From: a virus
Virus record (IMG/VR): IMGVR_UViG_3300033233_000175
Coordinates: 1 to 21,504 of that record
Length of the DNA: 21,504 bases
Reading direction: 5' to 3' (one strand)
A program made the position numbers and the translations under genes. The notes under the pieces are model-generated. The model searched no databases. It worked only from the letters and a program-made list of their open reading frames with translations, and was not told where the DNA came from. Position 1 is the stretch's first letter. Each line of letters opens with the position of its first letter. This document shows positions 2,441-14,462 of this stretch, in pieces.

Positions 2441-2718
2441 TGGCGTTTACGGAAGACCTAAGCATCTTCCTTGCAGACTTCGGCGTCAGCTGCACAGCTG
2501 GCGCCGTTACTGCTTTGGGCATCCTTGACATGCCAGGCCAAGTGATCAGCGATGGCATGGTGCTGACTACTGATTACACCTTGACGGCGAAGGCTTCTGA
2601 CTTCGGCGCACTGATCCGCAACGATGCAATTACGGTTAATGCTGTGGCATACACCGTGCGCGAGGCAATGCTGCTAGATGACGGCAGATTTGTTCAAATC
2701 GCACTACAGAAAACATGA
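2440..2718 (+). CDS. Head-tail joining protein (lambda FII-like family)
   Basis: A 92-residue protein of the small beta-barrel head-tail attachment type, the family related to lambda gpFII. Features seen: N-terminal MAFTEDLSIFLADFGV, a middle with ILDMPGQVISDGMV, and a C-terminal pair of strands NAVAYTVREAMLLDDGRFVQIALQ typical of this fold (strand, 'y.V.e...ddG....l.L'). It would bind the completed capsid at the portal vertex and present a surface for the tail. Its place between the decoration gene and the tail terminator is the usual one. The start overlaps the preceding stop (TGATG), giving coupled translation. Confidence 0.75.
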   Translation: MAFTEDLSIFLADFGVSCTAGAVTALGILDMPGQVISDGMVLTTDYTLTAKASDFGALIRNDAITVNAVAYTVREAMLLDDGRFVQIALQKT

Positions 2719-3344
2719 GCGGTCCCTTCAAGGTCAACACACGCAGCCAATGGGGTGCACTCAACCCAGTGATGTTGGCTGGCGAGCCTGGCCTTGAAAG
2801 CGACACTGAGAACCTAAAGATCGGGGATGGTCGAACTACATGGTCTGGCTTGCCCTACTTCGGCAACCCTGGCTACTGGGGTTCGTTTTGGGATGAAACG
2901 TCGCAGGTGGCGGCGCTCGCCAATACGGCTTATGCGATCAAGCTGCGGCAAGTTGACACGGTAAGCCGTGGCACCAAGATCATTTCAAATGAGCGGATTA
3001 CTTTTGATCATCCCGGCATTTACAGCATTACGTTTTCAATCCAGTTCAGCAACACGGACAGCTCGATTCACAACATCAACGTTTGGTTGCGCAAAAACGG
3101 TGCTGACGTGCCGGCCAGCGACAGCCGGTTCAGCATCACTGCAAAGCATGGCATTCTTGATGGTAACGTGATCGGCACCGTTAATTTCGTGCTTGGGTTG
3201 ACGACCAACGACTACCTCGAAGTGATGTGGTCAACCGGCGACGTCGAGGCCTACATTCATGCTGAGGCAGCTCAAACAAGTCCCTTTGCCCACCCCAGCA
3301 TTCCCGGCATCATCTGCACCGTTGTCCAAGTTGCATCTGCTTAA
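2715..3344 (+). CDS. Fibre-like protein with Mtd-type N-terminus and C1q/TNF-like C-terminal domain
   Basis: A 209-residue two-part protein. Residues about 8-50 (W at 13, then MLAGEPGLESDTENLKIGDG and W..LPYF) match the short repeat-like N-terminal module found on many phage fibres and in the Mtd N-terminal family. Residues about 55-207 are a single beta-jelly-roll-like domain, with FDHPGIYSITFSIQFSN, VWLRKNGADVPASDSR and DYLEVMWST, that resembles the C1q/TNF-like trimeric domains of cyanophage fibre proteins. The gene overlaps the upstream joining-protein gene by four bases. It lies within the head-connector cluster rather than among the tail fibres, so a head fibre or collar whisker is plausible. 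Receptor or glycan binding is inferred. Confidence 0.75.
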   Translation: MSGPFKVNTRSQWGALNPVMLAGEPGLESDTENLKIGDGRTTWSGLPYFGNPGYWGSFWDETSQVAALANTAYAIKLRQVDTVSRGTKIISNERITFDHPGIYSITFSIQFSNTDSSIHNINVWLRKNGADVPASDSRFSITAKHGILDGNVIGTVNFVLGLTTNDYLEVMWSTGDVEAYIHAEAAQTSPFAHPSIPGIICTVVQVASA

Positions 3345-5537: not shown

Positions 5538-7856
5538 ATGGCCTTAAACATGGATGCCATGCTCCGCATCAAGGCGGACGTGCAAGGTGAGAATAATATT
5601 CGCCGTCTAGGCAATTCCATGCGAGGCCTGCAAGGGCAGGCAAAGAACGCTGCATTGGGCTTTAACAACCTCAAGGGTGCCGTAGGTGGCTTTGCCGCAG
5701 CAATCGCCGGCAGCGCCATTGTGGGCGGCCTGGGTGCCATCGTGAAGAAGTCGATCGACGCAGGCGATGAACTATTCAATCTGCAGGCGAAGACCGGTAT
5801 TGCAGCTAATGCGTTGATTGGACTGGGCAATGCAGCCAAGCTGGCAGACGTTGATCAAGCTGCCCTTGGCAAAGGCTTGACAAAGCTCAGCGTCAACCTT
5901 GTCAAAGCTGCTGAAGGCAACGATGGCCTTGCGCAAAAGTTTAAGGCGTTGGGTGTTTCAATCAAAGATTCTAAAGGTCAGGTGGTGCCGGCTGACAAGG
6001 CACTGAAGCAGATTGCGGATCGCTTTGCGGACATGCCCGACGGCGCGCAAAAGGCGGCCGCAGCGGTGGCACTGTTTGGCAAGTCCGGCGCCGACTTAAT
6101 CCCGCTGCTGAACGAAGGAGCGGCCAGCATGGAAAAGTTCACCTACAAGGTGGGCGAGGACTTTGCCGCGCGGTCCGATCTGTTCAATGACACCATCACT
6201 GAGTTTGGCATCAAGACGCAGGGCTTCGGACTGGAGCTGACCGATGCGCTGCTGCCGGCGCTGCAGTCAATCCTTGAGGTATTTGGCGATCTGTTCGACA
6301 CCGACCAAGACTGGTCGGCATTGTTCAAGGTGATCAAGTTTGGCTTGCAATCTGTTGCCGCTGTTGTTTACGCCACGATCAAGCTGGTTGATCAACTGAT
6401 AAAGGCTGTTGTCTACAGCTTTGATGCAATCGGCAAGGCACTGCAGGGTGATTTTGAGGCTGCAGGCCGGGCGTTGAGTCAAGGCTTTGGCGCGGGGCTT
6501 GAGCAGGCTAAGCGCGACTTTGCTCAGCTTCAAAAGATCTTTACCGACTCCCCCTCCCCCGGCACCGGCCGCCGCACGGGCGGGCGCAACATGGACTTGG
6601 ATACCAGTGCAGCAGATCGAGCTGGTGACGCAGCAGCTCGTAAGCGCGCGGCTGAAGGCAAACGTGTTGAAACAGAGCAGGAGCGACTGTTGGAACGGCG
6701 GCAGGAGCTGACACGCAAGGCGATCGACCTGCAGCAGCAGCTGCAGAACAGCGTCGCTGATGTTGCGGCTGCCTATGCAGGTGTCGGCGCAACGCCCACT
6801 GATCAGCTATTCCTTCAACGGAATGAAGCGATCACCGAAAACGATCGGCAGATAAAGGCACTTACGTTGAGTGTGGTGGAGCTTGTCCGGGGATTCAACG
6901 CAGTCGGCGGTTCACTGGACGTAAAACCGTTTGCGGATTTGATCGACCGCCTTTCGGCTGCAAATGTGGCACTGACCGATCAGGAGTACCTGCAAGGCTT
7001 GAAGGATCTCCTGCCCAGCGTTGCCGAGTACGACGCCAAGATTGCAGAAGTAACACGCGGCAAGACCGAGCTGACTAAATTGGAAAAACTTAACGCTCAA
7101 GTCAACCTGCTACAGCTTGACATCTTGGCAGCAACCAAACCAGCACTGGCTGAGCAGATTCGGCTGTTGCGCGAACGTGCCGGCGCACTGGACAGAGCGA
7201 CCAAGAAGCAAGAAGAAAACAGCAAGAGCTTTGGGACGCAGTTTAAGGAATCGTTCAAGCAGGCCTATGACTCTGCCACCAACCTCGGCGCCAACTTGGC
7301 CAGCATTGCCACGAACGGGATCGACGGTTTGACCAATGCCATCGTTGAGTTTGCCACCACGGGCAAGGCATCTTTCAAAGAGTTTGCGGCATCAGTGCTG
7401 AAAGATCTCAGCGCGATGCTGATCAAGTTTGCCATCTTCAAGGCGATTGGCGCCCTCTTCCCCGGCCTGACCGGCTTCGCTGACGGCGGCGTATTTGGTG
7501 GTGTCAGTGGTCCGAGTATGCAGCCCCGCACTGGTTTTGCCAAGGGCGGCACCTTTACCAATTCCATCGTCAGCTCGCCCACGCTCTTCAAGTTCGCCAA
7601 CGGCGGCGCCATGCGCACAGGCCTTATGGGCGAAGCTGGCCCTGAGGCGATCATGCCTCTGCGTCGTGGCCGCAACGGCAACCTAGGCGTGATGAGTAGC
7701 GGTGGCGGCACCACCAATGTCGTCGTGAATGTTGACGCCTCTGGCAGCAGCGTACAAGGCGATCAGTCGCAAGCCAAGGCACTTGGTAATGCCATTAGTG
7801 CTGCCGTACAATCGGAGCTGGTTAGGCAAAAACGCCCTGGAGGCTTGCTTGCATAA
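5538..7856 (+). CDS. Tail tape measure protein (lambda gpH-like C-terminus)
   Basis: A 772-residue protein that sets tail length. GGAG lies eight bases before the ATG. Residues about 1-45 are polar (VQGENNIRRLGNSMRGLQGQ, the usual tape-measure opening). A hydrophobic Ala/Gly stretch at about 47-70 and another at about 260-295 could act as membrane-inserting segments during DNA ejection. Residues about 100-210 hold the 'LFGKSGADLIPLLNEG' element typical of TP901/lambda-type tape measures. Charged helices with coiled-coil character lie at about 365-405. Residues about 565-650 (FKEFAASVLKDLSAMLIKFAIFKAI) match the lambda tape-measure C-terminal domain, followed by Gly-rich GFADGGVFG, MGEAGPEAIMPLRR and a final helix. 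It ends with overlap into the M-like gene. Confidence 0.95.
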   Translation: MALNMDAMLRIKADVQGENNIRRLGNSMRGLQGQAKNAALGFNNLKGAVGGFAAAIAGSAIVGGLGAIVKKSIDAGDELFNLQAKTGIAANALIGLGNAAKLADVDQAALGKGLTKLSVNLVKAAEGNDGLAQKFKALGVSIKDSKGQVVPADKALKQIADRFADMPDGAQKAAAAVALFGKSGADLIPLLNEGAASMEKFTYKVGEDFAARSDLFNDTITEFGIKTQGFGLELTDALLPALQSILEVFGDLFDTDQDWSALFKVIKFGLQSVAAVVYATIKLVDQLIKAVVYSFDAIGKALQGDFEAAGRALSQGFGAGLEQAKRDFAQLQKIFTDSPSPGTGRRTGGRNMDLDTSAADRAGDAAARKRAAEGKRVETEQERLLERRQELTRKAIDLQQQLQNSVADVAAAYAGVGATPTDQLFLQRNEAITENDRQIKALTLSVVELVRGFNAVGGSLDVKPFADLIDRLSAANVALTDQEYLQGLKDLLPSVAEYDAKIAEVTRGKTELTKLEKLNAQVNLLQLDILAATKPALAEQIRLLRERAGALDRATKKQEENSKSFGTQFKESFKQAYDSATNLGANLASIATNGIDGLTNAIVEFATTGKASFKEFAASVLKDLSAMLIKFAIFKAIGALFPGLTGFADGGVFGGVSGPSMQPRTGFAKGGTFTNSIVSSPTLFKFANGGAMRTGLMGEAGPEAIMPLRRGRNGNLGVMSSGGGTTNVVVNVDASGSSVQGDQSQAKALGNAISAAVQSELVRQKRPGGLLA

Positions 7857-8224
7857 TGGCTACCTTTGACGATGCCACCGTAGGAACCAGCACCAATGGC
7901 ACGGTGCCTGATTTTGGGTTATCAAAAAAAAGTGAGCCCGCTGTCCGCAACGTTCAGTTTGGGGATGGATATTCCCAGCGGCTGGTAGTGGGCTTAAACC
8001 AAAGCCCGAAAGAATGGAGCCTGACGTGGGCCAACAGGAGCAACGCTGATATTACTGCGATTGAGACTTTCCTAGATGCGCGAGCTGGCGCACAGTCTTT
8101 TACTTGGACGCCACCTGATGGCGCTACGGCCTATAAATTTATTGCGCAAAGCTGGAATCGCAAGCTGGAATACGCAGGCATTAGTACGCTTGATGCCACT
8201 TTCCGGCAGGTATTTGAGCCATGA
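7856..8224 (+). CDS. Minor tail protein M-like
   Basis: A 122-residue protein of the lambda gpM / phage minor tail family. Seen: SEPAVRNVQFGDGYSQRLVVGLN near residue 30, KEWSLTWANRS, then FLDARAGAQSFTWTPP and a C-terminal strand STLDATFRQVFEP, all diagnostic of the family ('FGDGY.QR...G', 'F.W.pP'). It forms part of the distal ring between tube and tip, acting just before L. It starts on the tape-measure stop (TAATG) and its last bases overlap the L-like start (ATGA), so M and L are translationally coupled. Confidence 0.93.
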   Translation: MATFDDATVGTSTNGTVPDFGLSKKSEPAVRNVQFGDGYSQRLVVGLNQSPKEWSLTWANRSNADITAIETFLDARAGAQSFTWTPPDGATAYKFIAQSWNRKLEYAGISTLDATFRQVFEP

Positions 8225-9762
8225 GTGAAATGTTTCAGGAGCTGCTTAGCTCCAGTCCCTACGCAATTATTGAACTATTTGAATTGCACTTAGATATAGC
8301 ACTACATGGAAGCAGCGATATTGTGCGGTTTCATGCTGGTGTCAATGAAAAGTCAACCGCAGGTGATGTGATTTGGCAGGGCTACACTTATCAAGCATTG
8401 CCAATTGAGGTGGAGGGGTTTGAGTACAATGGCAGCGGTCAACTGCCACGTCCCAAGGCGCGTGTCGCAAACTTGATGGGCGGCGTTTCCGCGCTTTTGC
8501 TAGGTGTCAATGAGATTACACCCGGCAATGATTTGATTGGCGCTAAATTTATACGCATCCGCACGTTAAGTCGCTTTTTAGATCCTGTTAATTTTACCGG
8601 CGGGGTCAATCCTTATGGCACTTCTGCCGATGAGGAAATGCCCCGCGAGGTGTACTACATTGATCGCAAATCAGCCGAGAACCGTAATATTGTTGAGTTT
8701 GAACTGGCTGCGGTATTTGATCTTGCGGGCGTACGCGCACCAAAGCGGCAAGTGCTGGCTAACCTTTGCCAATGGAAATATCGAAGCGCAGAGTGCGGCT
8801 ACACAGGCGGCAATTTTTATGATGAGCTGGACCAACCGCTTGGGGCGACACCAGCGACAAACTTTGGGGCTAGTGCATTTGGAAACCAATTAACGTCTCC
8901 CTCAACTCTTGGCGAAGGTGATGCGCTTGTGTCGCCTAATGGGTGGTATCGCGCCCTGCTGCAAAGCGACGGCAATTTTGTTGTCTCCAATAAAGCAGGC
9001 CTTGTTGTATGGAGCACCAACACTCCGTATGGCGAAGGTGCGTATGAGCTACAAATGCGGACGGGCGGCAATGCCGTATTGGTCAACGGAAGCAATGTTA
9101 TTTGGCAAACAAATACATGGGGCTCCTCCCCTACAGCCGTTTCTTTTATTGCAATGTATCCACCAGACGCCTTCACGGGCAAGATGGGTGGCTTTGGTTA
9201 TCAAATTGTAGGGTTTTCGCCAACAGGGCTAGGTCAGCAGCAGACAGTAAGCTCTACATTTACAATCGCAACTGGCAAAACAATTACATTACAAATGGTA
9301 TTTAATTCTCTCGAATTGGTTCCGCCGCATTACACAGGATTGGCTTACGCTTGGACGACTGTCTCATACACGGTGACCGCTTCAACTGGATTTTGGTTCC
9401 TAAACGAAGTTTTCAATGCCATTGTGCAGTTAACAGTAGGCAATCCATTTAGAGCAAACCATCCCACCCTAGGCACGCTGACGGAAGCCGGTCCGCAATT
9501 GCAAGTTACTAGCACCACCAATAATAGCGGCAATAAATTTACCTTGGCCAATGATGGCTCACTAACTGTTTACAACGTCTACAATTTAGTGTTGTATTCC
9601 TCGGGTTATAGCAACGCATCTGAACCACTGGTTCAGACTGGCACCGTTGATCCATTGCGTGATGTTTGCGGCAAGCGAATTAGCAGTTGCAGGCTGCGAT
9701 TCCCTGCCCCGTCAGACGTACCGTTTGGCTCCTTCCCCGCTGCTGGCACCTTCTACGGATGA
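8221..9762 (+). CDS. Minor tail protein L-like with a large inserted bulb-type lectin-like region
   Basis: A 513-residue protein, about twice the usual gpL length. Residues 1-205 are a normal gpL N-terminus (IIELFELHLD, YQALPIEVEGFEY, PRPKARVANL) ending at the first cysteine pair Cys183/Cys192 (LCQWKYRSAECGY). The second pair, Cys483/Cys490 (DVCGKRISSCRLRF), and the end PFGSFPAAG are also standard. In lambda gpL four such cysteines bind an iron-sulphur cluster. Between the pairs lie some 270 extra residues. Residues 228-300 read as two bulb-type mannose-lectin repeats (LVSPNGWYRALLQSDGNFVV, VVWSTNT; NAVLVNGSNVIWQTNTW), and 438-463 (LANDGSLTVYN..NLVLYSSG) looks like a third. The middle, 305-435, is beta-rich and unassigned. 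The inserted part probably loops out from the tail tip. Confidence 0.88.
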   Translation: MSEMFQELLSSSPYAIIELFELHLDIALHGSSDIVRFHAGVNEKSTAGDVIWQGYTYQALPIEVEGFEYNGSGQLPRPKARVANLMGGVSALLLGVNEITPGNDLIGAKFIRIRTLSRFLDPVNFTGGVNPYGTSADEEMPREVYYIDRKSAENRNIVEFELAAVFDLAGVRAPKRQVLANLCQWKYRSAECGYTGGNFYDELDQPLGATPATNFGASAFGNQLTSPSTLGEGDALVSPNGWYRALLQSDGNFVVSNKAGLVVWSTNTPYGEGAYELQMRTGGNAVLVNGSNVIWQTNTWGSSPTAVSFIAMYPPDAFTGKMGGFGYQIVGFSPTGLGQQQTVSSTFTIATGKTITLQMVFNSLELVPPHYTGLAYAWTTVSYTVTASTGFWFLNEVFNAIVQLTVGNPFRANHPTLGTLTEAGPQLQVTSTTNNSGNKFTLANDGSLTVYNVYNLVLYSSGYSNASEPLVQTGTVDPLRDVCGKRISSCRLRFPAPSDVPFGSFPAAGTFYG

Positions 9763-10469
9763 ACCACTGGAAACACGATGCCTTGCAACACGCTTTAGCC
9801 GAGGCGCCACGAGAAGCCTGCGGGCTAGTAGTGGTGATCAAAGGGCGCGAACACTACCGGCCATGCAAAAACCTTGCAACCGATCAAAACTTTTTTGTCC
9901 TAGATCCACAAGATTATGCTGATGCCGAAGACGCCGGGGAAATTGTTGCAGTGTTTCACAGCCACCCTCAATCTCCAGCGCAAGCGAGCCAAGCCGATTT
10001 GGTAGCGTGTGAAAAATCTGGCCTTGAGTGGTACATCTGCAACCCTGGCACTGGGTTGTGGTGTAAGTTCAGCCCAACTGGCTATCAGCAGCCCCTAATT
10101 GGCAGGCAATGGGTTTGGGGGGTGTCTGATTGCTGGACACTGGCTCGCGACTGGTACAAGGAGACGTGGGACTTAACGCTGCCTGACTGGAAGCGCCCGA
10201 CAACGATGTTGGAGTTTTACGAGGCACCCATGTTTGAAAGCTGCTACGAAGAAGCAGGTTTTATTGACATGGGCATCCAATCACCCCAAGAGGGTGACTT
10301 GATTTTTATGTCACTGGACGGTTCGCGGGGCTTAAATCACGTTGGCGTTTACCTTGGTGAGCAGCGACTGTTGCATCACTTGTGCAACCGCCTTAGCAGC
10401 CGCGACATCTGGGGCGGCTATTATCAGAAGGCATGTGGCTTAATCGTCAGGCACCGGAGCAAATGCTGA
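9759..10469 (+). CDS. Tail tip protein K-like: JAMM/MPN domain plus NlpC/P60 peptidase domain
   Basis: A 236-residue protein starting at ATG 9759, overlapping the L-like stop (ATGA). A longer frame from 9687 exists but would overlap L by 76 bases and its extra residues do not look like family sequence. Residues 1-100 are a JAMM metalloprotease-type domain: Glu19 in EACGLVV, His67-Ser-His69-Pro, Ser77 and Asp80. Residues 115-232 are an NlpC/P60 domain: Cys125 in VSDCWTLARDWY, His194 in LNHVGVYLG, with His206/207 after it. This is the two-domain arrangement of lambda gpK, which joins the tail tip and may cut peptidoglycan during entry. All key residues are present, so both domains could be active. 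Confidence 0.93.
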   Translation: MNHWKHDALQHALAEAPREACGLVVVIKGREHYRPCKNLATDQNFFVLDPQDYADAEDAGEIVAVFHSHPQSPAQASQADLVACEKSGLEWYICNPGTGLWCKFSPTGYQQPLIGRQWVWGVSDCWTLARDWYKETWDLTLPDWKRPTTMLEFYEAPMFESCYEEAGFIDMGIQSPQEGDLIFMSLDGSRGLNHVGVYLGEQRLLHHLCNRLSSRDIWGGYYQKACGLIVRHRSKC

Positions 10470-10470
10470 C

Positions 10471-11094
10471 ATGTTTCGCGTCATCAAGGTTTACGGAAAA
10501 CTAGCCAAGCACCTGGGGCAACGCAGCTTCAAGGCAGTGGTGAGCACTCCAGCAGAGGCTGTGCGGTTCTTGCTGGCTAATTTCCCAGAACTACGCGCCT
10601 TGATGCGCGAAGGCCAGTACATGGTGAGCGTGGGGCGCAACCCACTTGAACTAGGCACCAACCCCGAGTTATTGCATTACCCCAGCGCAAGCTTTGAAAC
10701 AATCAGGATTGTTCCTGTTGTTGCTGGCGCTGGTGCGGTAGGGCGGATTATTTTGGGCGCTGTGTTAATTGGCGTTGCAATTTTTTCAGGCGGCATTGGT
10801 TTTGGAGCTGCCGGTTTTTTTGCAACAGCAGGGCAAGCGGCTAGCTTTGGAACTGCACTTGTCGTTGGGGCGGGCAACCTTGGCATGGCCTTGGTTCTTG
10901 GCGGCGTCGCCCAACTTCTAACGCCAACACCAAAAGTTGGCGTATCCGAAAGTGATCCACGAAGAAGCTATAGCTTCTCGGGTATCCAAAACGTCAGCCG
11001 TCAAGGTGTGCCTGTGCCTGTGATCTATGGCGAAGTTTTTACTGGTAGCGTCATAATATCTGCTGGTATCAACACTGAAGAGGTTGCTACATAA
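10471..11094 (+). CDS. Tail assembly protein I-like
   Basis: A 207-residue protein of the lambda tail-assembly gpI family. Residues 1-80 show the ubiquitin-like opening (IKVYGKLAKHLGQRSF..V..PAEAVRFLLANFP). Residues about 85-150 form a long Gly/Ala hydrophobic stretch that could span or enter a membrane. The end, about 165-207, holds YSFSGIQNVSRQGVPVPVIYGEV, a motif typical of gpI-type proteins. It starts two bases after the K-like stop and ends in TAATG overlap with J. It is needed for tail-tip assembly in lambda, where it is not found in the finished virion. Confidence 0.92.
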   Translation: MFRVIKVYGKLAKHLGQRSFKAVVSTPAEAVRFLLANFPELRALMREGQYMVSVGRNPLELGTNPELLHYPSASFETIRIVPVVAGAGAVGRIILGAVLIGVAIFSGGIGFGAAGFFATAGQAASFGTALVVGAGNLGMALVLGGVAQLLTPTPKVGVSESDPRRSYSFSGIQNVSRQGVPVPVIYGEVFTGSVIISAGINTEEVAT

Positions 11095-14000
11095 TGACCG
11101 ACCAATACATCATTGGCGCTGGTGGCGGTGGCGGCAAAAGCGGTGGCGCTGCTGGTGGTGGTGCCGAAATTGCAAAGGACAACCTTGATTCCACTCAAGT
11201 AGCTCGAATTATTGACCTGTTGTGTGAGGGAGAAATTGCTGGGTTTCCATCTGCTCGTAACTACTCGCCGGGCACTACCGCTTTTAACAATGCACTTCTT
11301 AAGGACGTATTCTTAAATAATACGCCAATTTTACGAGCAGGCGCAAATGACAGTAACCCGCAAGATTCAGATTTTAATTTCCAAAGGGCTGGCGCGGTTT
11401 TTGAATTTCGCAGCGGCACTCAGAACCAAGCCTATACGGACGCAGTTGGTGATGCCAACCAACGCACAATTGCAGTATCAGCAGAAGCTACTTTCAACTT
11501 GCCAGTCACCCGCACAATTACAGATACCGATGTTACATCGGTGCGGGTGACGATTGGCACACCGCAACTGCACATCCAAAGATCTAACGGCAATATTGAG
11601 GGCAATCAAATTGACTATGAAATTCAAACCTCTTACTCTGGAGGGCCATTTACAACGGTTGTAGCCTCAACGATCAAAGGTCGCACCGCTGATCTTTATC
11701 AACGTATTCATTTGCTTACCTTGACGACGGGAGGTGGTTTTCCTGTTTCAATTCGCGTAAGACGCATATCTGCTGATCCCCCAGCCTCTGGACTGGAGCC
11801 AAGCAGTTTCTTTTGGTACGACTACACTGAAAAAATTAATGCACGGACGACTTTCCCGAATAGCGCATTATTTGGAATAAAAATTAACGCTGAACAATTC
11901 AGCAGTATTCCAGAGCGTATGTATCGCATACGCGGCTTAAAAATTCAAATCCCAAGCAACGCAACGGTCAACCAATCAAATGGGCGATTGATATATGCAG
12001 GCGTGTGGAACGGGACATTTGGCGCGGCGCAATGGACAACAGATCCAGCCTGGATACTTTACGATTTGTTGACAGCCAGGCGCTACGGATTTGGGGAGCA
12101 AATTGACGCTTCACAGCTTGACAAGTACAGCTTCCTAGCTGCAAGTCAGTATTGCACTGAAGTTGTATCAGATGGCAAAGGCGGTCAAGAACCACGCTTT
12201 TCGTGCAACGTGGTGCTGCAAACACAGCAAGAAGCGTACAGCCTTATCAATAGCCTGTGCTCTGTATTCCGCGCCATGCCATTTTGGTCTACAGGGACGC
12301 TTGAAATTGCACAAGATCGCCCCGAAGACTATTCCTATATTTTTAATCAAACCAACGTAACTGAAGAGGGTTTTAACTACAGCGGCAGCGGCTTAAAAAC
12401 ACGCCACACCGTTGCAGTGGTCCAATACTTTGATATGAATTTACGCGACCTTGCGTATGAGGTAGTAGAAGACAAAACAGGCATCGAAAAGTTTGGGGCA
12501 GTTCAAACTGAAATAAGTGCCTTTGCTTGTAACAGCCAAAGCCAGGCTCGCAGGGTTGGCGAATGGTTGCTCTACACAGAGCAAAATGAAACAGAAGTAG
12601 TTAATTTTGCAACTGATATTGCTGCTGGAGTTTCAGTTCGACCTGGCGACTTAATCAAGATCGCTGACCCGGTTCGAGCTGGGGTATCACGCTCTGGCCG
12701 TTGCATTGCTGGCTCTACTACTACTTCTGTATTACTAGACCGCAGTGATAGCGTGTTATTTCCCAGTGGCTCTCCAGCGGGTTTTACGCTAAATGTGATG
12801 TTGGCTGACGGCACTTTAGCGATTGCGCCCAACTCTACGCTAAGTGGTAACACAGTTAGTGTGGGCACCACGCTATCTATGGCGCCTATTGCTGGAGCGC
12901 CTTGGACAATTGGCACGAGTGAAGTGTCCATGTCTACATGGCGCGTCCTAAGCATTGCCGAAAACGAAAACGTCTATACGATTACTGCTGTTGCCCATAA
13001 TCCCAGTAAATACGACTACATTGAAAGGGACGTTCCACTAAGTCAACGAGACGTAAGTGACCTAAACGAACCACCCGAACCGCCAACAAACTTGGGCGTG
13101 CAAGAAATCTTGTACGAAAGCAATGGACAGGTGGTGTCGAAGTTGATTATATCTTGGCAAGGGTCCGAACGTGCGCTGTCCTATGAGTTGCGGTATCGCT
13201 ACAACAACGGCAACTATGTAACACGAACCACGCGCACCATCGACTCTGAAATTCAAAACAGCGACGTAGGCAGGTACGAGATTGAAGTTGTTGCGCTTAG
13301 CGCATTAAACTCCAAGCGATCATCACCAGCAACAATTACGTTTGACGCCATTGGTAAGACCGCTCCACCGCAAACAATTCCTGATTTATTGATTGCTCCA
13401 ATTGATCAGCACACGGCTGAGTTGTATTGGCCGCAGTCGGTGGATATTGACGTTCGTATTGGCGGTAAAATTGCCATTCGCCATTCGCCGTTGATTGATG
13501 GCACTGCTACATGGGGGCTAACGAATGACATTGTGCCTTCCGTTGCAGGCAGCAACACTCGTAAAATTGTGCCCTTACTGGAAGGCACTTATTTTATTCG
13601 AGCCGTTGACTCCCTTGGTAACGAGTCGGCTGGTGTTGCCAGTGTAATTGTTGACTTGCCAGCGCCGCAAGATCTGCTGCTAGTTCAGGAATACCGCGAA
13701 GATGACAACGCCCCGCCCTTCAATGGCACTGCTACCAACCTTGCGTATAGCGACGTTGAAGTCGGTCTAATCCTTACTGCCAGTACCTTAATTGACAGCA
13801 TGGCAACTGACGGCAATTGGGATGCCTTGGGGTTAATTGATTACATTGGCGGCGCGGTTGCCGGAGGCACCTACCAGTTTTTTGAGACGCTTGATCTCGG
13901 CGGTGTCTACGATCTTGGGATGCAAAGAATCCTTAAAACTCGTGCATTTGAGCCGGGCAATACATGGGATGAACGATTAGAAAACATTGACTTGTGGAAC

Positions 14001-14462
14001 GATATTGATGGGGATGACCTTGGCGCCGCTAACTGTGAGGTTTATGTACGGACAACAACCGACAATCCCAGTACCTCGCCAACTTATAGGGATTGGCAGC
14101 CGTTTGTGAACAACACCCATCGAGGGCGTGGCTTCCAGTTCAAGCTAGAAGCAACCAGCAGCAACCCAGCGCAAAACGTAGTAGTGGAGCAGCTAGGCGT
14201 TGAAACCTTGTTTGAGCGTCGCACTGAGCAACAGCGCAACCTAACAAGCGGTGCCTCGGCGTTTGCAGTGACCTTCCCGTCAAGGTTTTATGGGGTGCCA
14301 AGCGTAGGCATTACCGCGCAAGACATGGGCCAAGGTGACTTCTTTACCGTTACCGGCATCAGCCGTTTAGGGTTTACAGTGACCTTCCGCAACAGTGCGA
14401 GTACAATGGTCAGCAGAACCTTTGACTACCAAGCTGTCGGCCACGGCAGGGAGATCATCTGA
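11094..14462 (+). CDS. Tail tip attachment / central hub protein J-like
   Basis: An 1122-residue protein of the lambda gpJ type, the tail hub and host-specificity protein. A Gly-rich N-terminus (residues 7-23) and DSTQVARIIDLLCEGEIAGF are typical. Residues about 60-640 hold the hub domains, including EYSYIFNQ-like and RRVGEWLLYTEQNE...VRPGDLI segments of the tail-associated part. Two fibronectin-III-like domains follow (about 659-753 and 757-861). Residues about 865-1040 form a tip domain with YRDWQPFVNN. The last 80 residues (NLTSGASAFAVTFPSRFYGVPSVGIT..GDFFTVT..GFTVTF) resemble H-type lectin-like beta domains, a plausible receptor-binding end. The start overlaps the I-like stop (TAATG) and the end overlaps the fibre gene (TGATG). 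Confidence 0.93.
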   Translation: MTDQYIIGAGGGGGKSGGAAGGGAEIAKDNLDSTQVARIIDLLCEGEIAGFPSARNYSPGTTAFNNALLKDVFLNNTPILRAGANDSNPQDSDFNFQRAGAVFEFRSGTQNQAYTDAVGDANQRTIAVSAEATFNLPVTRTITDTDVTSVRVTIGTPQLHIQRSNGNIEGNQIDYEIQTSYSGGPFTTVVASTIKGRTADLYQRIHLLTLTTGGGFPVSIRVRRISADPPASGLEPSSFFWYDYTEKINARTTFPNSALFGIKINAEQFSSIPERMYRIRGLKIQIPSNATVNQSNGRLIYAGVWNGTFGAAQWTTDPAWILYDLLTARRYGFGEQIDASQLDKYSFLAASQYCTEVVSDGKGGQEPRFSCNVVLQTQQEAYSLINSLCSVFRAMPFWSTGTLEIAQDRPEDYSYIFNQTNVTEEGFNYSGSGLKTRHTVAVVQYFDMNLRDLAYEVVEDKTGIEKFGAVQTEISAFACNSQSQARRVGEWLLYTEQNETEVVNFATDIAAGVSVRPGDLIKIADPVRAGVSRSGRCIAGSTTTSVLLDRSDSVLFPSGSPAGFTLNVMLADGTLAIAPNSTLSGNTVSVGTTLSMAPIAGAPWTIGTSEVSMSTWRVLSIAENENVYTITAVAHNPSKYDYIERDVPLSQRDVSDLNEPPEPPTNLGVQEILYESNGQVVSKLIISWQGSERALSYELRYRYNNGNYVTRTTRTIDSEIQNSDVGRYEIEVVALSALNSKRSSPATITFDAIGKTAPPQTIPDLLIAPIDQHTAELYWPQSVDIDVRIGGKIAIRHSPLIDGTATWGLTNDIVPSVAGSNTRKIVPLLEGTYFIRAVDSLGNESAGVASVIVDLPAPQDLLLVQEYREDDNAPPFNGTATNLAYSDVEVGLILTASTLIDSMATDGNWDALGLIDYIGGAVAGGTYQFFETLDLGGVYDLGMQRILKTRAFEPGNTWDERLENIDLWNDIDGDDLGAANCEVYVRTTTDNPSTSPTYRDWQPFVNNTHRGRGFQFKLEATSSNPAQNVVVEQLGVETLFERRTEQQRNLTSGASAFAVTFPSRFYGVPSVGITAQDMGQGDFFTVTGISRLGFTVTFRNSASTMVSRTFDYQAVGHGREII

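Follow-up and report, generated by a model that had tools for sequence, protein, structure and literature searches.

What occupies the iron-sulphur loop of a viral gpL-type tail-tip protein, and what would it do there? The question arises from a 21.5 kb virus record (IMGVR_UViG_3300033233_000175, positions 1 to 21,504, hereafter the window), in which about 270 residues lie between the two cysteine pairs of such a protein.

The gpL-type protein and the boundaries of its insert

The protein is a clear member of the gpL family. Its residues 32-208 match Phage_tail_L (PF05100) with an E-value of 1.8e-53 and 181 bits against a cut-off of 25 in Pfam, the protein matches phrog_18 in PHROG (E 2e-77), and its predicted fold matches lambda gpL (8iyk_L, E 1e-13) in Foldseek. 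The tail genes of the window run in the order tape measure-M-L-K-I-J, with gpL in its expected slot and its stop codon sharing the sequence ATGA with the start of gpK (Table 1). The mean pairwise identity of the attachment domain across 36 relatives is 68%.

All four cysteines of the predicted iron-sulphur site are present. Cys183 and Cys192 correspond in position to lambda Cys173 and Cys182, and the second half with the C-terminus is aligned to residues 195-228 of the F2-pyocin hub. The cluster cysteines 183, 192, 483 and 490 are invariant in all 36 aligned relatives. The AlphaFold2 model is weak over both halves of the site, with pLDDT below 50 at residues 172-187 and 475-491.

In a PDB sequence search, the F2-pyocin hub aligned to residues 12-206 of the window protein and then to residues 477-510. 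Because the two matching segments are only two residues apart in the hub, we assign the insert to residues 207-476. The spacing from the second to the third cysteine is 291 in the window protein versus 22-23 in 60 short-loop gpLs, and it is 23 in lambda gpL (Cys182 to Cys205, PMC10721106). Lambda gpL, the T1 hub (9l9p_J) and the F2-pyocin hub (25vf_7) have the attachment domain, the four cysteines and the C-terminal strand in common with the window protein. The original prediction had placed a long insert at 8838-9650 between two intact cysteine pairs; both pairs are present, the alignment with the F2-pyocin hub locates the guest between Cys192 and Cys483, and the predicted limits were correct to within a few bases.

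Table 1. Coordinates of the gpL-type gene, its parts and the neighbouring tail genes in the window.
Feature	Residues	Position	Strand	Remarks
gpM-type distal tail protein		7856..8224	+	122 aa; Phage_min_tail E 5e-28, full length
gpL-type tail-tip hub protein with lectin insert		8221..9762	+	513 aa
gpL attachment (HDI) domain	1-182	8221..8766	+	Alignment with F2-pyocin, lambda and T1 hub chains
Fe-S site, first half (Cys183, Cys192)	183-206	8767..8838	+	
Whole insert	207-476	8839..9648	+	Takes the place of 2 F2-pyocin hub residues
Lectin repeats 1 and 2 (QSDGNFVVS; degenerate RTGGNAVLV)	222-301	8884..9123	+	B_lectin, pyocin L1/L2, bulb lectins; pLDDT mostly 81-93
Nested inner domain between lectin repeats 2 and 3	302-437	9124..9531	+	~135 residues
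Lectin repeat 3 (degenerate LANDGSLTVY)	438-475	9532..9645	+	Alignment, fold match, joined-flank search
Fe-S site, second half (Cys483, Cys490), and conserved C-terminus PFGSFPAAGTFYG		9649..9759	+	
gpK-type protein (JAB + NlpC/P60)		9759..10469	+	Pfam matches
gpI-type tail assembly protein		10471..11094	+	phrog_32 E 1e-45
gpJ-type central fibre protein		11094..14462	+	phrog_31 E 1.6e-195; FNIII-A_GpJ (Pfam)

The C-terminus of the gpJ-type protein (residues 1058-1109; gene at 11094-14462) matches H_lectin weakly (E 0.06) and may be a second part that binds saccharides. A short protein encoded at 2715-3344, between the head genes and the tail terminator, has an N-terminus of the tail-fibre or spike type (residues ~5-57; phrog_27786 and others); at the equivalent place, S-CBS3 and S-CBS1 carry a gene annotated as a fibre.

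The predicted lectin and its nested domain

Within the insert, the Pfam family B_lectin (PF01453) was matched with an E-value of 1.8e-5 when the whole protein was searched and 5.7e-6 when only the insert was, at 25.6-27.2 bits, which is under the curated cut-off of 32.4. The same family was matched in 35 of the 36 aligned relatives, with a best E-value of 2.9e-10, over the cut-off; scores above it include 41 bits in L039 and 103 bits in the multi-lectin P0003. The best solved relatives of the insert are pyocin L2, pyocin L1 and garlic lectin; in the PDB sequence search, the two pyocins and bulb lectins match residues 222-309 (E 2e-12 to 1e-8). An AlphaFold2 model built from 36 aligned sequences gave pLDDT 81-94 over most of residues 211-470, and Foldseek aligned its fold with gastrodianin (1xd5 chains) at a TM score of 0.89-0.91 and an rmsd of 1.5-1.6 A. 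This alignment covers 243 columns for a 112-residue target and crosses the nested domain, and such a match with a long central gap indicates that all three lectin repeats are present and the lectin is complete. When the lectin flanks were joined over the inner block, those of the window matched pyocin L2 (E 2e-15) and those of L039 aligned to residues 3-111 of gastrodianin (E 3e-14). On sequence and modelled fold, the insert is a genuine three-repeat B-type (bulb, MMBL) lectin.

The bulb-type lectin first suspected from the repeats is thus upheld by the B_lectin matches in relatives, the solved pyocins and bulb lectins, and the gastrodianin fold. The predicted fold is beta-prism II and not an unrelated one. 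Homologues with a long loop free of repeats were not what the alignment returned; the lectin is plainer in the relatives than in the window copy, and the third repeat, LANDGSLTVY in the window, reads QNDGNLVLY in relatives.

The block that interrupts the lectin appears to be a domain in its own right. Folded separately, residues 301-438 gave a pLDDT of 93 and a pTM of 0.86. Since a separately folding block lies inside the lectin, gpL holds a lectin which itself holds another domain. The inner domain has no significant Pfam, PHROG or PDB-sequence match, and PDB folds matched it in Foldseek at E 0.44 or worse, while two confident matches, D6PHN5 and D6PFJ6, were found among the predicted viral proteins of BFVD. 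As modelled, it is a separate domain without a known fold. The gastrodianin gap and its own confident fold place it at about residues 302-437, in agreement with the beta-rich interruption proposed at the outset.

The sugar site of the window copy is also as partly kept as had been supposed. Repeat 1 retains Q248-D250-N252-V254, with Ser256 in place of the final tyrosine of QxDxNxVxY, whereas repeats 2 and 3 are degenerate at the motif; most relatives retain two or three motifs. The tryptophan triad positions are W264, W295 and Y459, the last being tryptophan in most relatives. Judged from these residues, the predicted sugar site of the window is mostly decayed. With a single nearly intact motif and Ser256, the window lectin may have another sugar or a protein as its ligand, or none at all.

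Relatives and exchange of the insert

Scans of IMG/VR together with a motif count yielded 81 distinct complete lectin-bearing gpL loops, all from uncultured contigs. Across the short-loop and the lectin-bearing gpLs, the loops from the second to the third cysteine fall into discrete sizes of 22-23, 291-331, 578 and 719-744 residues. The class of 291-331 residues corresponds to a single lectin with its inner domain. Loops of 578 and 719-744 residues contain ~3-5 lectin modules with 8-10 QxDxNxV motifs; these multi-lectin proteins are L151, L160, L161, L163, L165 and L168. In a tree of the attachment domain the lectin-bearing gpLs group together, and the long branches of L162, L174 and L178 make any inference of a single origin tentative.

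Among 50,697 phage records, a lectin-bearing gpL turned up in no cultured phage, and the insert of L039 had no match. The lectin insert matched only a few Pseudomonas aeruginosa phages, in pyocin-L-like or hypothetical genes; the two examined lie outside the annotated tail genes. Longer matches, such as residues 7-352 in Bcep176, were rejected as over-extension, the annotated gpL there being 227 aa.

Other gpL proteins depart from the short-loop form in other ways. In Marine virus AG-345-A17 (L174, 2986-3978) an insert of ~130 residues occupies a different gpL loop, after ...LDAVNFP, and the protein ends in ...RQCTRTEFPSIGTFIA without the iron-sulphur half. The gpL of Prochlorococcus phage MED4-184 (L178, 2486-3058) stops before the iron-sulphur domain (...KRIITRKEFPSVGTFV) and has no cluster cysteines; from its sequence, the cluster can apparently be lost in marine cyanophage gpLs. 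L059 (from 2809) has a normal short cysteine loop of 23 and an insert of ~250 residues after the second cysteine pair, before the conserved PFGAFPGAG end, which makes this a further guest site. Burkholderia phage Bcep176 (L176) has an annotated tail-fibre gene at 936-1943, between the M and L genes, a different route by which an adhesin can be added at this point in the operon of tail genes.

The insert has diverged further than the protein that carries it, with a mean identity of 40-48% versus 66-68% for the scaffold among the relatives compared. It is nevertheless under purifying selection, with a dN/dS of about 0.05-0.2 in close pairs with unsaturated dS. The attachment domains of L089 and L090 are identical, their lectin repeats and C-termini nearly so, and the compared ~4 kb stretch is 97-100% identical except for the inner domains, which are ~54% identical and have breakpoints flush with the domain ends. 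L137 compared with L149/L150 shows the same pattern of an inner-domain-only swap. The whole insert has been replaced in L075: over the scaffold it resembles L064 (95%) more than L079 (73%), whereas over the lectin and inner domain it resembles L079 (92-95%) more than L064 (55-62%). A second whole-insert swap is found between L085 and L034. As far as sequence comparison can tell, these four cases demonstrate recombination, and the insert appears to vary by cassette exchange at two levels, either of the whole insert or of the inner domain alone. The guess that the region is hypervariable between relatives was therefore right, given both the lower conservation of the insert and the swapped cassettes.

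The lectin-bearing tail module is not tied to one head. The capsid protein of the window (phrog_617; head module 67-1848) is closest to those of the cyanosiphophages S-LBS1, S-CBS3 and S-CBS1. The contig of the relative L015 has an unrelated head, with a phrog_247 capsid and a portal closest to cyanophage S-2L (proteins L268/L269). As this head differs from that of the window, the tail module is combined with at least two kinds of head. Each of these is nearest to cyanophages, and a cyanobacterial host is likely from these similarities. The cyanophage marker psbA was absent from 13 related records, and a host search in genomes returned one MAG contig as its sole match. In the cultured S-LBS1, S-CBS3 and S-CBS1, the tail tip as annotated is organised differently.

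Proposed role of the insert

In lambda, three gpL copies make up part of the last tail ring, with the iron-sulphur domain on the outer surface (PMC10721106). The B-lectins of LlpA and pyocin L1 bind D-rhamnose of LPS, and in the LlpA bacteriocins it is the C-terminal B-lectin that binds the D-rhamnose of Pseudomonas LPS (PMC6240691). From this outer-surface position and this lectin binding, the insert is most likely an auxiliary adhesin that would keep the tail tip near the cell surface. We believe that the lectin and its nested domain in the iron-sulphur loop probably serve as a glycan grip at the tip surface, exchanged by recombination.

The proposed arrangement is as follows. A full B-type lectin of three repeats takes the place of the surface loop between the two iron-sulphur halves of a lambda-type hub gpL, with a domain of 135 residues lodged between repeats 2 and 3. 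Three gpL copies, as in lambda, would ring the exterior of the tail tip, so that the lectins and inner domains face the cell. There they would bind glycan on the host surface, weakly and through avidity, ahead of the step at which gpJ and the fibres commit the phage, while the intact cluster site would fasten both ends of the loop together. Changing host surfaces would select for recombinational exchange of the whole insert or of the inner domain only. Some lineages appear to have multiplied the lectin to ~3-5 copies, and such arrays would raise avidity; the inner domain may supply a narrower specificity. A bolder version, to which we would give slightly less than an even chance, is a two-level cartridge in which the lectin and a receptor-binding domain of new fold are swapped independently, the lectin is multiplied, and gpL sets the host range together with the fibres.

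The lectin fold might instead bind proteins or act as a structural base, supporting the inner domain or adjacent tail fibres, a stalk of which the inner domain would be the true receptor binder. Such a role would suit the mostly lost sugar motifs of the window, the unchanged lectin in inner-domain-only swaps, and the N-terminal lectin domain of LlpA, which recognises a loop of an outer-membrane protein and not a sugar (PMC6240691). We consider it rather unlikely, since two or three full QxDxNxV motifs persist in most relatives and 8-10 in the long forms, which is hard to explain without sugar binding, and since the lectin is included in the whole-insert swaps.

Much less probable is a neutral or weakly selected acquisition with no part in adsorption. 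The guests known from RcGTA and R4C show that the loop tolerates them, and gpL C-termini have been described as hypervariable (PMC13243795), which would fit a permissive surface loop; however, the insert is intact in 81 distinct gpL sequences and under the purifying selection given above, its motifs are retained, and lectins have been multiplied. It is still more improbable that the nesting and the swaps are artefacts of metagenome assembly. L089 and L090 do differ in almost only one block, and the inner domain of L089 has no close second contig in the set (best 58%), so an assembly error in that pair is conceivable. Yet the architecture is common to 81 distinct complete sequences from many samples, the reading frames remain open, and both parental types are represented for L075 and for L137/L149/L150. 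The glycan grip is the reading we retain.

A guest at this site has precedents. The hubs of RcGTA and roseophage R4C carry an oligosaccharide-binding domain between both iron-sulphur segments, at residues 168-249 and 162-243 respectively (PMC7296036, PMC10276861), so the insertion site itself is already known; saccharide binding by the RcGTA hub was named from fold similarity. RcGTA g13 (Rcc01696) and the R4C hub (vBDshSR4C_014) are, like the window protein, gpL-type hubs with a saccharide-binding guest in the four-cysteine domain, and that guest is a proposed aid to host attachment, as we suggest for the window. Their guest is a single domain of ~82 residues, whereas the window family has a beta-prism II lectin with a nested domain, in arrays of up to about five and swapped as cassettes. 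The RcGTA-type fold was not recovered here: the lectin matches beta-prism II and the inner domain has no PDB counterpart. LlpA, pyocin L1/L2 and the monocot mannose-binding lectins have the three-repeat beta-prism II fold of the window lectin and the QxDxNxVxY motif, which the window copy keeps nearly intact in one repeat, but they occur as free proteins, secreted or stored, and have no nested domain, whereas the window lectin is part of a virion protein. In the evolved Dit and Tal proteins of phages of Gram-positive hosts, too, a loop of a conserved protein of the tail tip accommodates a carbohydrate-binding module (PMC7291167). In evolved Dit the modules have other folds and sit in galectin loops without an iron-sulphur site. 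We did not class the window with them, as its guest sits in gpL and its Dit-like gpM is 122 aa and wholly Phage_min_tail. In searches of open-licence papers we found no description of a B-lectin in gpL or elsewhere in a phage tail, nor of a guest with the beta-prism II lectin fold, a nested domain without known fold, lectin arrays or cassette exchange at two levels.

What the iron-sulphur cluster does in tail tips of the lambda type has been described as still awaiting characterisation (PMC10721106). In this family, large guests are grafted exactly into the cluster-closed loop and the cysteines are always kept, which suggests that the cluster might clamp both ends of an exchangeable surface loop. 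The lectin-bearing gpLs extend the likely receptor-binding modules by a class found in uncultured siphophages, probably of cyanobacteria, and the family also contributes a domain without a known fold. Natural chimeras such as L089/L090 and L075 could reveal which part sets the specificity.
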